Shown in pieces: positions 40,114-49,057 of a DNA stretch of 64,000 nucleotides. The notes under the pieces were generated by a model. The model did no database searches. It had not been told where the DNA came from and saw only the letters and a list, made by a program, of their open reading frames with translations. Source of the DNA: Bdellovibrionales bacterium (GTDB taxonomy: Bacteria > Bdellovibrionota > Bdellovibrionia > Bdellovibrionales > JAMPXM01); NCBI GenBank assembly GCA_005808505.1, contig SYLX01000040.1, forward strand, positions 1-64,000, written 5' to 3'. Position numbers and translations under genes: made by a program. Position 1 is the first letter of the stretch, and every line of letters begins with the position of its first letter.

Positions 40114-42582
40114 TTAGTCGAATGGGTTTGAAGATTCAGCAGGTGTTGCCGCAGGGATCGGCGATTCGCCTTTTCGGAAAATCAATTCAATGGGCTCGAG
40201 TGTTTCTTCGCCTTTTTTAAGTGGAACACCGAAGGCCATTTGGTTTTCTGCCGAGAGAACGACTCGCTCTGTGTTTTCAGGCCACGGAAAATCGTGAGCC
40301 GGAAAACCGCTGCCGTAGCTTTTCATGTAGCTGGTCCAGATCGGAACAGCACCGGAGCCTCCGGTCAATTCGTGTGGCGTATTGTCGTCGTACCCCACCC
40401 AAACGATGGCTGTGTGATAAGGCGTAAACCCGGCGAACCAAGCATCTTTTTTGTCGTTGGTGGTTCCGGTTTTTCCTGCGGATGGATGGGTGAAGCCCGA
40501 GAGGCGAGCGGAGCGCGCCGTGCCTGTTACCATGGTTTGTTTCATGACGCCGACGAGCTCAGCCGTCGCATCTGCAGGCGCGACCACTTCGGGCTTGGCA
40601 TCAAAACGAAAGCGTTCTGTTCCATCGAGCGCATCGATGCGGCGAATGAGCGTGAGCGGGAACTTCGTCCCGAGAGTTGCCAGCGAACCGTAAGACTGCA
40701 GAACTTCCATCGGCGACAACTCGAAAGCACCAAGTGTGATTGAAGGAAGTGAAGACATCTTCGACGTCACCCCGAGGCGGTGGGCGGTGTCGACGATGTT
40801 GCTGATGCCAACGGACATGCCTAAGTTCACGGTCGAAGCGTTCAGAGATTCTTTCAACGACCAAAAAAGCGGAACCTCGCCTTTGTACGTACCGTCGTAA
40901 TTTCGGGGCGTCCACGTTTGTCCCTCGAACTTGTGCGTGGTGGCTTCGTCTTTCAACATCGTCAGTGGCGTGTACGGAGTGCCTTCGGTCGTGAGGTTTT
41001 CGAACGCCGTCAAGTAGACGAAGGGTTTCATCACGGAACCCACTTGCCGTCGGCTATCGACCGCCCGGTTATATTGCGAAACGAGGTATCCGCGACCGCC
41101 GACTAGCGCTTCAACATAACCTGTTCGAGGATCCGATGAGATGAAAACCGCTTCGAGATTCTTACCTTTTTCTTTGAGCTTCTTTAGGTGCGGGACGGTT
41201 GTCTCAAGACGTGTGAGACCAGCTCGAACGGATTGGTGGGCCGTTTCTTGGGCTCGCAAGTTGAGCGTCGTATAAACGCGCAATCCTTCGGTCTCATCGA
41301 TACCTTTAGCTTCGATTTCGCGTCGCACGGCTTGAACAAAGTAAGGAGCTGGCTCGGTCAACAGACGCTGCGGTTTGCTCGGGAGCGACGTTGCCTTCGC
41401 GACGCGCGCTTGGTCTTCGTCGATGAAGTTGAGTTCGCGCATGCGATCGATCACGCGCGCGCGACGTTTAATGGCGCGGTCAGGATGTTGAAAAGGGTTG
41501 TAAAGTCCGGGACTGTTGAGGACGGCCGCGAGAGTCGCGCATTGATCGAGACTCAAATCCTCGAGAGGTTTTGCGAAATAATGTTCGGAAGCCGCCGCGA
41601 AACCGCGGACTTCAAACGGACCGTTTTGTCCCATATAAATGAGATTGATATACGTTTCGAGAATATCGTCTTTGGTAGCGTGACGTTCGACTAAAGTCGC
41701 CATGGCGATTTCGGTAGCCTTTCGAGAGAACGTCTTTTCATCGGTCAGGAAGTAGTTTTTCACGAGCTGCTGAGTGATCGTGCTTCCGCCTTGGGCGCGT
41801 CGACCTGCGCGCAAGTTCGTGAGGACGGCGCGCGCCAACCCGGTGATGCTGATTCCCGGATGCTCGAGAAAATCGGAATCTTCAATGGCCAGAAGAGCGT
41901 TCAAGCAAGCGCTCGGAACGGTTCCAAGCGAAACTACTTTGCGCAAGACGGGTTTGTTTCCGTAGTACTGCGCAAAGAGATCAGCTTCGATTTGCAAACT
42001 AGGGACTTCGGTAGGTTGAGCTCCGGAATAGGCTTTGAGCACGGCTCCGTTGGTCGCGATCGCAACGATCTGCACGGACTCATCGTCAACCGTTGGAGCA
42101 ACGGTGGGAGTTGCGTTGCGAAACGCGAAACACCGAGCGAGTGTTTGCTCTGGTGGTGGAGGCGGAGCCGCTACCGCGATCGCGACACCTTCTTCTTGGT
42201 TCGTGGGTGGTGGAGTAGGGGCTGCGGTCACTTGCAAGAGAGATTGGCACTCAGCGGCTGACCAAACTGAGTAATCGCCCGGTTGAATCGGCTGGCCAAA
42301 GTCGCGGTGACGGAAGTTCTTTCGCGCAAATAAGGATTCGAAATAGTTGGGTGGATAACTCGAACCAGGGCGGACAATTTCGGGCGCGGAATAAAACTCA
42401 ACGGGTGGCGCGAAGCGTTTTTCAGCAAAACGCGTTTTGATGTTGCGATCGAGACGGAAGAGCCAAACTGCAAGGGCAATCGTACTGATGCCGATGATCA
42501 CAGCGAGGATCAAAAAAGTTTTGCGAATCCAACCTTTTCGCGAAAGCTCCCAACTCGACATCCACTGACGCAGACGATTCAC
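40114..42582 (-). CDS. mrcB: Bifunctional penicillin-binding protein, PBP1B-like
   Basis: GGSTITQQLVKNYFLTDEKTFSRK, RQVGSVMKPFVYL (SxxK), GKTGTTNDKKDAWFAGFT. Confidence 0.92.
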   Translation of the reverse strand: MNRLRQWMSSWELSRKGWIRKTFLILAVIIGISTIALAVWLFRLDRNIKTRFAEKRFAPPVEFYSAPEIVRPGSSYPPNYFESLFARKNFRHRDFGQPIQPGDYSVWSAAECQSLLQVTAAPTPPPTNQEEGVAIAVAAPPPPPEQTLARCFAFRNATPTVAPTVDDESVQIVAIATNGAVLKAYSGAQPTEVPSLQIEADLFAQYYGNKPVLRKVVSLGTVPSACLNALLAIEDSDFLEHPGISITGLARAVLTNLRAGRRAQGGSTITQQLVKNYFLTDEKTFSRKATEIAMATLVERHATKDDILETYINLIYMGQNGPFEVRGFAAASEHYFAKPLEDLSLDQCATLAAVLNSPGLYNPFQHPDRAIKRRARVIDRMRELNFIDEDQARVAKATSLPSKPQRLLTEPAPYFVQAVRREIEAKGIDETEGLRVYTTLNLRAQETAHQSVRAGLTRLETTVPHLKKLKEKGKNLEAVFISSDPRTGYVEALVGGRGYLVSQYNRAVDSRRQVGSVMKPFVYLTAFENLTTEGTPYTPLTMLKDEATTHKFEGQTWTPRNYDGTYKGEVPLFWSLKESLNASTVNLGMSVGISNIVDTAHRLGVTSKMSSLPSITLGAFELSPMEVLQSYGSLATLGTKFPLTLIRRIDALDGTERFRFDAKPEVVAPADATAELVGVMKQTMVTGTARSARLSGFTHPSAGKTGTTNDKKDAWFAGFTPYHTAIVWVGYDDNTPHELTGGSGAVPIWTSYMKSYGSGFPAHDFPWPENTERVVLSAENQMAFGVPLKKGEETLEPIELIFRKGESPIPAATPAESSNPFD

Positions 42583-42669
42583 GAAAATCCCTTTTCATTG
42601 TTGTTTTGCCTGTTCTTGACATTAGAGCGAGGCCTCCGTTTAGTCAAAGGCCGTTGGAGGAACGAGATC

Positions 42670-43323
42670 ATGGCTAAGGCAGCAAAGAAGATGGCAAAGG
42701 CGACGGCAAAGAAAGCCGCAACCGCGAAAACTAACAAAGCAAAGCAGACAAGCACGACCGCAAAGTCGAAGAACACAAAAGTCGCCGCACCCAAGGCGAA
42801 AGCGAAAGCAAAGGGACTGGTCGTAAAAGCATCGAAGAGTGCTAAAGGCGCCGCGCCCAAGGCGACGTCGAAAACAGCGACGCCAAAGTCGTCCGGAAAA
42901 ACTCTCGTCGCGAAAGCAAAGAGCGTTGCGAAAGCGGTCGTCGAAAAAGCGAAGTCCGCAACAGCTCAAGTGGCTGCTCAAACGACTTCCACAAAGTCGA
43001 CAAAGAAAACTTCGGCGAAGTTCACGAGTCACTTCGCTCCGCTCGATAATCGGGTTCTCGTTCAACGCGCGGGAGTTGCGGATCGTACGCCAGGTGGACT
43101 CTACATTCCGGATTCTGTTTCGGCAGGTGAACGCCCGAACCAAGGCAAGGTCGTAGCGGTAGGACCTGGGCATCGCGACAAAAAGGGACGTTTGCGTCCT
43201 CTCGATGTGCAGATGGGCGATACGGTTATGTACTCGACTTACGCTGGAAACGAAGTTTCTATTGAAGGCGAAGATTACTTGCTCCTTCGCGAAGAAGAGA
43301 TTCTCGCGATCGTCAAAACTTGA
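42670..43323 (+). CDS. GroES/Cpn10-like domain with ~118-residue Lys/Ala-rich histone-H1-like N-terminal extension
   Basis: RBS GGAGG; MAKAAKKMAKATAKKAATAK... then FAPLDNRVLVQRAGVADRTPGGLYIPDSVSAGERPNQGKVVAVGPGHRDKKGRLRPLDVQMGDTVMYSTYAGNEVSIEGEDYLLLREEEILAIVKT. Confidence 0.88.
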   Translation: MAKAAKKMAKATAKKAATAKTNKAKQTSTTAKSKNTKVAAPKAKAKAKGLVVKASKSAKGAAPKATSKTATPKSSGKTLVAKAKSVAKAVVEKAKSATAQVAAQTTSTKSTKKTSAKFTSHFAPLDNRVLVQRAGVADRTPGGLYIPDSVSAGERPNQGKVVAVGPGHRDKKGRLRPLDVQMGDTVMYSTYAGNEVSIEGEDYLLLREEEILAIVKT

Positions 43324-43468: not shown

Positions 43469-44998
43469 ATGTCTCTTAGCGTACTTACACGTGTTTTGAC
43501 GCAGGTTTCGACATGCAATTTGATGGGTCTGGTTCTCGCTGCAACGGCCGTTTCCTCACTCCTTAGCAGTCCTGCGCAGGCCGCGGATGTTACCTGGGGC
43601 GGCAACTATCGCGTTGAAGGCGTAAAGATCGTCAATCCGGAACTGAGCAGCGTTCAAGCTGACAAATCTTACCTTCTCCATCATCTGACGCTGACTCCAA
43701 AAGTTGTTGCGGCCGACGGTCTGACGATTTACTCGCGCCTCGATATTTTGAACAACTTCGGTTTCGGCATCGCGCAAGATGGAACCGTCCAATCCGTTGC
43801 GGGCGACTTGCTCGGCAACGGGCCCGGCGGTCCGGTTTCGCCAACATCTCCCGTTTACGCGGATCAATCGAACGCTTGGTCACGCACACAGCGCGCTGGT
43901 CTCATCAATATCACGGCTCTCTACGCGAGCTGGGCGCAAGAGTTTGGTCAGCTCGTGGTTGGTCGCACACCGATTCACTTCGGTCTCGGGACCGCGTACA
44001 ACGCTGGCAAAGGTCAGTTCGATCACTACATCGATACGAAAGATTTGATCGGTTACAAATTCGTTCTCGGAAATCTCTTCGTTCTTCCGATGCTCGGTAA
44101 GATCAGCGAAGGCACTATCGGTGCGGAAGATGACGTCGACGACTACATGGTTCACGTGCAGTACGACAATCCGGAGACGGAGCTTTCGCTCGGTGGTTTC
44201 TACCAGCTTCGCGTCGTCACTGGTAACGATGCGCCCATCAATCCGAACTTGGGCGGAGCCGGCAGCACACGCCTTGGCAGCTACAAGAACACATTGATGA
44301 GTTTGTTCTTCTCGCAAAAACTTGGCCGTGACTTCCGCATGGGCGTTGAAGCCGACTTGCTCTCAGGTGACACCGGAGTCGTGAATCCTGCGGGTCAAGG
44401 TGTGAGCTTGAATTCATTTGGTATCGCGGGTGAGTTCTCGTGGGCGCCGGTTGACGGCGCATGGGGTGCGGGTTTGAAAGCCGGTATCGCGAGCGGTGAT
44501 GATCCGGGTTCTACAGACGTGTACGAAGGTTTTGCGTTTAGCCGTAATTACGACGTTGGCTTCTTGATGTTCAACCATCCGCTTGGGCAACGCGACTTCT
44601 TGCGCACAGGGCTTCATCGTCCTGCTCAATCGAACGCAACACCTGCCGCGGGTGAACGCGCGTCTGAGCAAATCGATACGGAAGCAATCAGCAACGCTTT
44701 ATACTTAGCTCCGAATGTTACTTACCGTCAGCGCGAGAATTTGTCCTATGGCGCTACGGTGGTTTATGGGATGCTCAACAAAGATCCGCTACGCGATGTC
44801 TCCAACAATGCTGCAGGGACTTCTTCGAACCTCGGCTTCGAGTTGGATTTGAACGTCACGTACAAGCCGTTTGAGCGCATGACATGGATCACGGAGGCGG
44901 GTGTCCTTCTTCCAGGCGATGCTTGGAAGGGCGGCTCCACGAACCTCGACAACAGTTTGACTTACGGAATAGTTACCAAGGCCGCCATTAACTTTTGA
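43469..44998 (+). CDS. Putative outer-membrane beta-barrel protein
   Basis: Signal peptide ending SPAQAA, amphipathic alternating pattern, C-terminal aromatic (AINF). Confidence 0.7.
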   Translation: MSLSVLTRVLTQVSTCNLMGLVLAATAVSSLLSSPAQAADVTWGGNYRVEGVKIVNPELSSVQADKSYLLHHLTLTPKVVAADGLTIYSRLDILNNFGFGIAQDGTVQSVAGDLLGNGPGGPVSPTSPVYADQSNAWSRTQRAGLINITALYASWAQEFGQLVVGRTPIHFGLGTAYNAGKGQFDHYIDTKDLIGYKFVLGNLFVLPMLGKISEGTIGAEDDVDDYMVHVQYDNPETELSLGGFYQLRVVTGNDAPINPNLGGAGSTRLGSYKNTLMSLFFSQKLGRDFRMGVEADLLSGDTGVVNPAGQGVSLNSFGIAGEFSWAPVDGAWGAGLKAGIASGDDPGSTDVYEGFAFSRNYDVGFLMFNHPLGQRDFLRTGLHRPAQSNATPAAGERASEQIDTEAISNALYLAPNVTYRQRENLSYGATVVYGMLNKDPLRDVSNNAAGTSSNLGFELDLNVTYKPFERMTWITEAGVLLPGDAWKGGSTNLDNSLTYGIVTKAAINF

Positions 44999-47866: not shown

Positions 47867-49057
47867 ATGAAGTTCACGTTCCCACCATCCGCTAAACCCG
47901 ACACGATCGCGATCAACGATTGGATGAGTTGGACCTGGCAGCTTCGCCACTCGCTGAAGTCTTTAGAGGACTTCAGCCAAAGCTTTGAACTGACCGAAGA
48001 CGAAGTTCGCGGATTCGCGGGTGCAGATCAGGTTTTTCAGATTCGTTCGACGCCTTACTATTCTTCGCTCGCTTCGCGGACAAACGCGGTCGATCCATTA
48101 CGCCGAATCCTCATGCCCTCGGGTCGCGAGCTGACCCCCGGGGCGCAAGCAATGCTTGATCCTTTAGGGGAGAAGCGAAACAACCCCGCGCCGCGAATCA
48201 TCCATCGATATCCCGATCGTCTTCTTTTCCTGGTAACGGATACTTGCTCCGTTTATTGCCGCTACTGCACGCGCAAGCATTTTACGGGCGGCGACCAAGC
48301 CTTCGTTCGCAGCGCGGAGTACGATCAGGCTCTCTCGTACATCAAATCAAAGACCGGACTCCGCGAAGTCATTCTTTCGGGTGGAGATCCGCTCACATTG
48401 TCCGACGCGATCCTTGATCGTGTGCTCTCGGATTTAAGATCGATCGAGCACGTGGAGATCATCCGCATCGGCACTCGCATGCCGGTAGTTTGCCCCATGC
48501 GAATCACCGAGGATTTAGCTCGGATGATTCGCAAGCATAAGCCCGTATACCTGATGACTCACTTCAATCATCCGCGTGAACTCACGCGCGAGGCGGCCGC
48601 AGGTCTAGAGTGTTTGGTTGATCACGGGATTCCCGTTTTTAATCAGCTGGTGCTCCTAAACGGAGTCAATAATCATCCCGCGATTATTCAAGCGCTCTCA
48701 AGGCGCTTACTCTTTTTACGAGTCAAACCCTACTACATGTTCCAATGCGATCCGAGCGAAGGGACCGATCATCTTCGCACTTCCATCGATGAGTCTCTCG
48801 AGATTCAGCGCGAGCTTTGGGGCCGCCTTTCGGGTCTTGCGATGCCGTCACTCTCCGTCGATATTCCTGATGGCGGAGGCAAAGCCGGACTTGTTCCTAA
48901 CTTCGAAGTCGAGAAGAGCCCGGGGCGTCGAGCGTTCGTCGGTTGGGACGGCGTGCGTGCCGAGTACATTGATCCAGCGAAGAGCGAAAGACTTCTTCCC
49001 TTCGATGCCGAGACGTATTCCCGTGAGTGGGATGAACTTAAGAATGCGAAGCTTTAA
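47867..49057 (+). CDS. KamA-family radical SAM protein (lysine 2,3-aminomutase-like)
   Basis: RLLFLVTDTCSVYCRYCTRKHFTG; LSGGDPLTLSD; PYYMFQCDPSEGTDHLRTSI. Confidence 0.9.
   Translation: MKFTFPPSAKPDTIAINDWMSWTWQLRHSLKSLEDFSQSFELTEDEVRGFAGADQVFQIRSTPYYSSLASRTNAVDPLRRILMPSGRELTPGAQAMLDPLGEKRNNPAPRIIHRYPDRLLFLVTDTCSVYCRYCTRKHFTGGDQAFVRSAEYDQALSYIKSKTGLREVILSGGDPLTLSDAILDRVLSDLRSIEHVEIIRIGTRMPVVCPMRITEDLARMIRKHKPVYLMTHFNHPRELTREAAAGLECLVDHGIPVFNQLVLLNGVNNHPAIIQALSRRLLFLRVKPYYMFQCDPSEGTDHLRTSIDESLEIQRELWGRLSGLAMPSLSVDIPDGGGKAGLVPNFEVEKSPGRRAFVGWDGVRAEYIDPAKSERLLPFDAETYSREWDELKNAKL

Follow-up and report, generated by a model that had tools for sequence, protein, structure and literature searches.

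The lysine-rich tail of the second GroES of Bdellovibrionales and its putative role as a polyanion tether

The closest described counterpart of the gene analysed here is groES2 (Bd3349) of B. bacteriovorus HD100, whose product was shortened from 224 to 117 aa by Lambert et al. (2012), the N-terminus being 'repetitive' (PMC3464611). In that study the tail was treated as a mis-annotation and transcription alone was investigated; the groES2 transcript was found to appear at 2-4 h of predation in a wild-type predatory culture, and most GroEL-contact residues of the protein were reported to be conserved (PMC3464611). In attack-phase cells the transcript is low. Both the existence of this gene and its late transcription have been described before; no report was found in the open-licence literature of the conserved tail, the start-site evidence, the order-wide distribution, the roof-loop reversal or the split-DUF507 operon described below. 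The open-licence literature likewise yielded nothing relevant on lysine-rich GroES tails and no description of a chaperonin-chromatin link of the kind proposed below.

The present gene lies in a window of 64 kb, the whole stretch of DNA under analysis, from a Bdellovibrionales genome. By its sequence, it is the second GroES (groES2) of this order, an order-wide, stand-alone gene and the counterpart of HD100 Bd3349. The window protein shares the locus, the tail and the Cpn10 domain with HD100 GroES2, but it belongs to another family of the order and comprises 217 aa, compared with the 224 aa annotated for HD100. The second copy of one relative (L038) reproduces the numbers given for Bd3349 exactly: counted from the annotated start it has 224 aa, and from a Met at base 322 it has 117 aa.

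The groES2 locus and its distribution

The gene is contained in one uninterrupted ORF of 217 aa (42670-43323, + strand; stop codon 43321-43323), whose features are collected in Table 1. The ribosome-binding site that the preliminary description had ascribed to the fused ORF is present as a GGAGG preceding the ATG at 42670. Its judgement that the fusion is not a frameshift artefact also stands, as the ORF is unbroken and the same fusion recurs in independent genomes, which rules out a frameshift or misassembly.

Table 1. Coordinates of groES2 features and neighbouring genes in the window.
Feature	Coordinates	Strand	Basis or remark
Penicillin-binding protein (transglycosylase + transpeptidase), divergent upstream neighbour	40114..42582	-	Pfam; locus marker, outside the mechanism
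Predicted sigma-70-like promoter	42616..42644	+	-35 TTGACA 42616-42621, 17-nt spacer, -10 TTTAGT 42639-42644; sequence reading
Shine-Dalgarno GGAGG	42656..42660	+	9 nt 5' of the tail ATG
Lys/Ala-rich N-terminal tail, 118 aa, net +31, predicted disordered	42670..43023	+	Translation, AlphaFold2, 45 paralogues
Cpn10/GroES domain, 99 aa, plus stop codon	43024..43323	+	PF00166 E 1.9e-28; pLDDT mostly >90
Mobile-loop tripeptide Leu-Tyr-Ile (GGLYIP), GroEL-contact motif of GroES	43099..43107	+	Alignment of 28 sequences
Roof-loop Lys-Lys; two acidic residues at the equivalent place in canonical GroES	43180..43185	+	45 tailed vs 30 canonical copies
Secreted or outer-membrane-like protein, downstream neighbour	43469..44998	+	Locus marker; no Pfam family matched

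An arrangement similar to the predicted promoter, TTGAC...TTAGTC, is found at the same spot in L069, L035, L051, L075 and further loci without an upstream DUF507 pair. Across relatives the locus is kept, the window and L038 included, with the penicillin-binding protein gene present at 45 of 46 loci and the gene for the outer-membrane protein (OMP)-like neighbour at 43 of 46. Another recurrent neighbour of groES2 (21 of 46 loci) encodes a lysine-2,3-aminomutase-like radical SAM protein, located in the window at 47867-49057 (+ strand). An antisense open frame of 177 aa (42640-43173, - strand) overlies groES2 and is probably a mere shadow of AAR/GCN codons on the opposite strand.

At L042, L063 and 15 other loci, DUF507 (PF04368, function unknown) is split into genes for an N-terminal and a C-terminal half directly before groES2, and at these 17 groES2 loci the C-terminal half lies directly upstream of the tail. 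The family was matched in 32 of 60 relatives; a search of the window's own genome gave no match, and DUF507 has probably been lost or is missing there. The paper on the crystal structure of Aquifex DUF507 mentions neither GroES nor Bdellovibrio. The loci of relatives that lack groES2 (L170-L180) retain DUF507 and, downstream, the OMP-like gene, with a clean absence of groES2.

Cpn10 was detected in 59 of the 60 relatives, and in about 45 of them a second copy occupies a long open frame. A single branch with support of 100/98 parts 45 tailed from 30 canonical Cpn10 domains, and the tailed domains, on long branches in this tree, evolve faster than the canonical ones. The preliminary description had proposed a search for the architecture in relatives, where the fusion of a Lys-rich tail with Cpn10 proved to be present in 45 of 45 paralogues with a readable N-terminus; none of the 30 canonical GroES proteins carries such a tail. 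Outside the order, Cpn10 is encoded in a short frame in every match among the matches listed for 143 sampled genomes of the phylum. Two peptide patterns were also run against 85,462 species genomes and the best 80 loci retained, a design which a tailed GroES with a different core could escape. Among these best 80 loci, Lys-rich tails occur in records of Bdellovibrionales or Bdellovibrio-type bacteria, together with one 'Proteobacteria bacterium' and one 'Bdellovibrionota bacterium', and no tailed locus is followed by groEL. Several lineages of the order have no groES2. Its presence and absence are mixed within several families, a patchy pattern that suggests repeated loss. A horizontal or viral origin was rejected, since none of 10 viral GroES-like matches has a Lys-rich tail.

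Besides groES2, the window's genome contains a canonical groES, which is truncated by the end of contig C28 after 32 positions of the profile. The absence of groEL from the window, stated in the preliminary description, was confirmed and extends to the whole assembly; of the canonical groESL pair that was to be located elsewhere, groES was therefore recovered in incomplete form and groEL was not found. Because the contig breaks inside the canonical groES, a gap in the assembly most likely accounts for the missing groEL. The relatives mostly have a single groEL, directly after the canonical groES, and groEL was never seen beside groES2 at any locus examined. A second groEL as a dedicated partner of groES2 was rejected, given that none adjoins groES2 and that the genomes mostly contain one groEL. 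One genome of the same order (G015; 2.1 Mb, 99% complete) has neither a Cpn10 nor a Cpn60 match; either the genes fall into a gap between contigs or this bacterium lacks a GroE system.

The lysine-rich tail and its translation

The preliminary description had placed about 118 Lys/Ala-rich residues before the Cpn10 domain, and residues 1-118 indeed contain 32 Lys and 32 Ala, with a calculated pI of 11.2. Lys accounts for 4.8% of residues in neighbouring genes, and the binomial probability of at least 32 Lys in 118 residues is about 1e-15. No other open frame in the window approaches the Lys richness of the tail. The second most Lys-rich frame, around 22550 (+ strand), has 21 Lys in 100 residues. 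In the AlphaFold2 model, residues 1-120 show a pLDDT of about 48-59 and secondary structure is absent. The tail thereby resembles H1-like proteins in being Lys/Ala-rich, strongly basic and of low pLDDT; searched alone against Pfam and NCBIfam, the curated Hc1/Hc2 models included, it matched no family up to E = 1. Tail length varies from 54 to 221 aa (median 120) among the paralogues, and sequence and length drift with Lys richness kept in all 45.

At 17 of 17 loci with DUF507 upstream, the start codon of the tail (MAK..., VAT..., VAS...) overlaps the DUF507 stop by 5-14 nt, an arrangement as in translational coupling. The substitution pattern shows purifying selection on the reading frame of the tail: among the five closest comparisons (Nei-Gojobori), dN/dS is 0.06-0.16 for the tail, a rough estimate given the uncertain alignment of repeats, and 0-0.04 for the domain. 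An internal start near the domain is ruled out by these overlaps, by several relatives that have no ATG, GTG or TTG between tail and domain, and by the window itself, in which the single internal start is a GTG without Shine-Dalgarno sequence. Tail and Cpn10 were not seen encoded apart in any relative examined, and genomes without groES2 miss both jointly, with the flanking DUF507 and OMP-like genes intact. The two observations that the preliminary description had named as contradicting a fusion, an internal start and separate genes in relatives, were thus looked for and neither was made. As far as sequences can tell, the tail is a genuinely translated, conserved part of the protein. That it is not made at all, the true start lying just before the Cpn10 domain of an ordinary second GroES, as when Bd3349 was re-annotated in 2012 as a protein of 117 aa, was argued by Lambert et al. 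(2012; PMC3464611), who pointed to repetitive sequence and to 107 initial codons without homology, but this is very improbable in view of the relatives without any start codon, the locking of the tail start to the upstream stop codon, the purifying selection, the Lys richness retained despite drift and the proposed Met itself, which is missing from most Bdellovibrio-type copies.

The Cpn10 domain and the putative role of GroES2

The domain called near-complete in the preliminary description is a Cpn10 domain and is in fact complete (residues 119-217; PF00166 positions 2-93 of 93; 98.7 bits against a cut-off of 21.1), and its top PDB matches are all Cpn10/GroES structures (E about 1e-9 to 1e-8). 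Within the mobile loop, G142, G143, I146 and P147 are invariant and L144 and Y145 nearly so. The GroEL-contact tripeptide reads LYI, LFI or III in 36 of 45 paralogues, and the mobile loop is altered in a few divergent ones (e.g. L052, L068 and L077). Because this tripeptide is kept, GroEL docking has probably been retained by GroES2. The two possibilities raised in the preliminary description were a repurposed Cpn10 fold, which the largely retained mobile loop makes less likely, and a nucleoid- or RNA-tethered co-chaperonin, which is our best inference. The roof loop, which we take to face the dome opening, is reversed in charge: tailed copies carry the pair KK (38 of 45), KH (3), AK (2), RK (1) or SK (1), whereas canonical copies carry ED (26 of 30), DD (2), DE (1) or EE (1), and the median loop charge is +3 versus -1. 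Basic tail and basic roof loop co-occur in every sampled tailed copy.

It is reasonably likely that GroES2 still serves as a co-chaperonin subunit capping the cell's only GroEL and that its polycationic tails bind a polyanion. Its Cpn10 domain would fold like GroES and form a seven-fold lid, alone or mixed with GroES1, that would dock on GroEL by the mobile loop, and the N-terminal tail would be a disordered polycation. The GroEL folding cage holds about 60 kDa. Since one tail has 11.8 kDa and seven tails amount to about 83 kDa (+217 charges), they exceed the cage and would lie mostly outside it in a full GroES2 ring. Tails and charge-reversed roof loop may then bind a polyanion of the cell, with nucleoid DNA as the most likely one and RNA or polyphosphate as the alternatives. 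Folding chambers would in this way be held at the polyanion surface. Alternatively, the ring might bridge DNA and compact it at a late stage of predation, at which HD100 groES2 switches on and the chromosomes are compacted again ahead of septation.

DNA is the first-choice ligand because the tail is of H1 type, because the window's genome encodes a small protein (L159, SWIB-like by eye) whose tail is of the same kind, and because the HD100 transcript coincides with the re-compaction of the chromosome before septation, for which other, unidentified proteins are suspected (PMC11318664). The tail may also bind polyphosphate, ribosomes or acidic proteins, as polycations can. The papers on the nucleoid proteome and the predation proteome do not mention GroES2 in their main texts, which says little because trypsin would destroy the tail. 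The more specific proposal, that GroES2 rings bind nucleoid DNA and GroEL together, dock chambers on the chromosome and help its compaction at the septation stage of bacterial predators, is possible and put forward tentatively.

A tether to polyphosphate granules or rRNA instead of DNA is a sub-case of the polyanion-binding reading and fits the ability of polycations to bind any polyanion; AlgP, an H1-like K/A-rich protein, is implicated in the spacing of polyphosphate granules in Pseudomonas, according to an excerpt of the source (PMC9239181). Nothing in the analysis favours polyphosphate or rRNA over DNA, however, and we consider such a tether unlikely. A role in chromatin alone, with GroES2 as a ring-shaped nucleoid protein that compacts DNA by its tails and has lost its GroEL work, would suit an orphan gene with a basic roof loop, a faster-evolving domain (long branches) and late expression coinciding with chromosome compaction. 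It is rather improbable, as a pure scaffold would not need the GroEL-binding-type tripeptide kept in most copies and a gene missing from several lineages of the order is no universal chromosome component. The roof, reversed in charge and presumably facing the dome opening, would also suit a specialised folding chamber, in which a changed chemistry of the cage or a lid mixed from GroES1 and GroES2 serves late-stage clients and the tail acts on clients or the acidic GroEL cavity instead of nucleic acid. An alternative lid for late-stage proteins was proposed by Lambert et al. (PMC3464611), but the H1-type composition of the tail and the combined size of seven tails, too large for a cage that could take one or two of them from a mixed ring, leave this reading with a low probability.

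If the tail works as proposed for a tethered co-chaperonin, an alternative chaperonin lid would set where in the cell folding occurs; in the other option, a chaperonin fold would double as a chromatin protein. The gene bears on the question of which proteins re-compact the Bdellovibrio chromosome ahead of septation. The findings also speak for returning to the published Bd3349 annotation the half or so of the protein that was removed from it, which functional work on the 117-aa form would miss.

Comparison with known systems

Canonical GroES/Cpn10 proteins (E. coli GroES, M. tuberculosis Cpn10, Thermus Cpn10) share with GroES2 the domain, the fold and a mobile loop with a GG-hydrophobic-tripeptide motif, whereas the 118-aa basic tail, the basic instead of acidic roof loop and the lack of an adjoining groEL set GroES2 apart. 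The tail is Lys/Ala-rich and repetitive like Chlamydia Hc1/Hc2 and Pseudomonas AlgP, and its length varies as that of Hc2 does between relatives, according to an excerpt of the source (PMC2848022). In contrast to Hc1/Hc2, it has no significant Hc1/Hc2 or Pfam match and is fused to a chaperonin lid. Within the window's genome, the small protein at L159:1504-1890 (MAKKKAAKKAAKK... tail; weak HC2 match) likewise combines an AKKAAKK-type N-terminal tail with a small C-terminal domain, which differs from Cpn10 and, judged by eye, is apparently SWIB-like. Alternative GroES-type lids of altered size or architecture are also represented by phage T4 gp31, to which the fold match of GroES2 is weak (1g31, E 0.03), and by chloroplast Cpn20/Cpn23, with Cpn20-type chains matching GroES2 through the Cpn10 domain alone. 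These lids have tandem or enlarged Cpn10 domains and no polycation tail, whereas GroES2 has such a tail.
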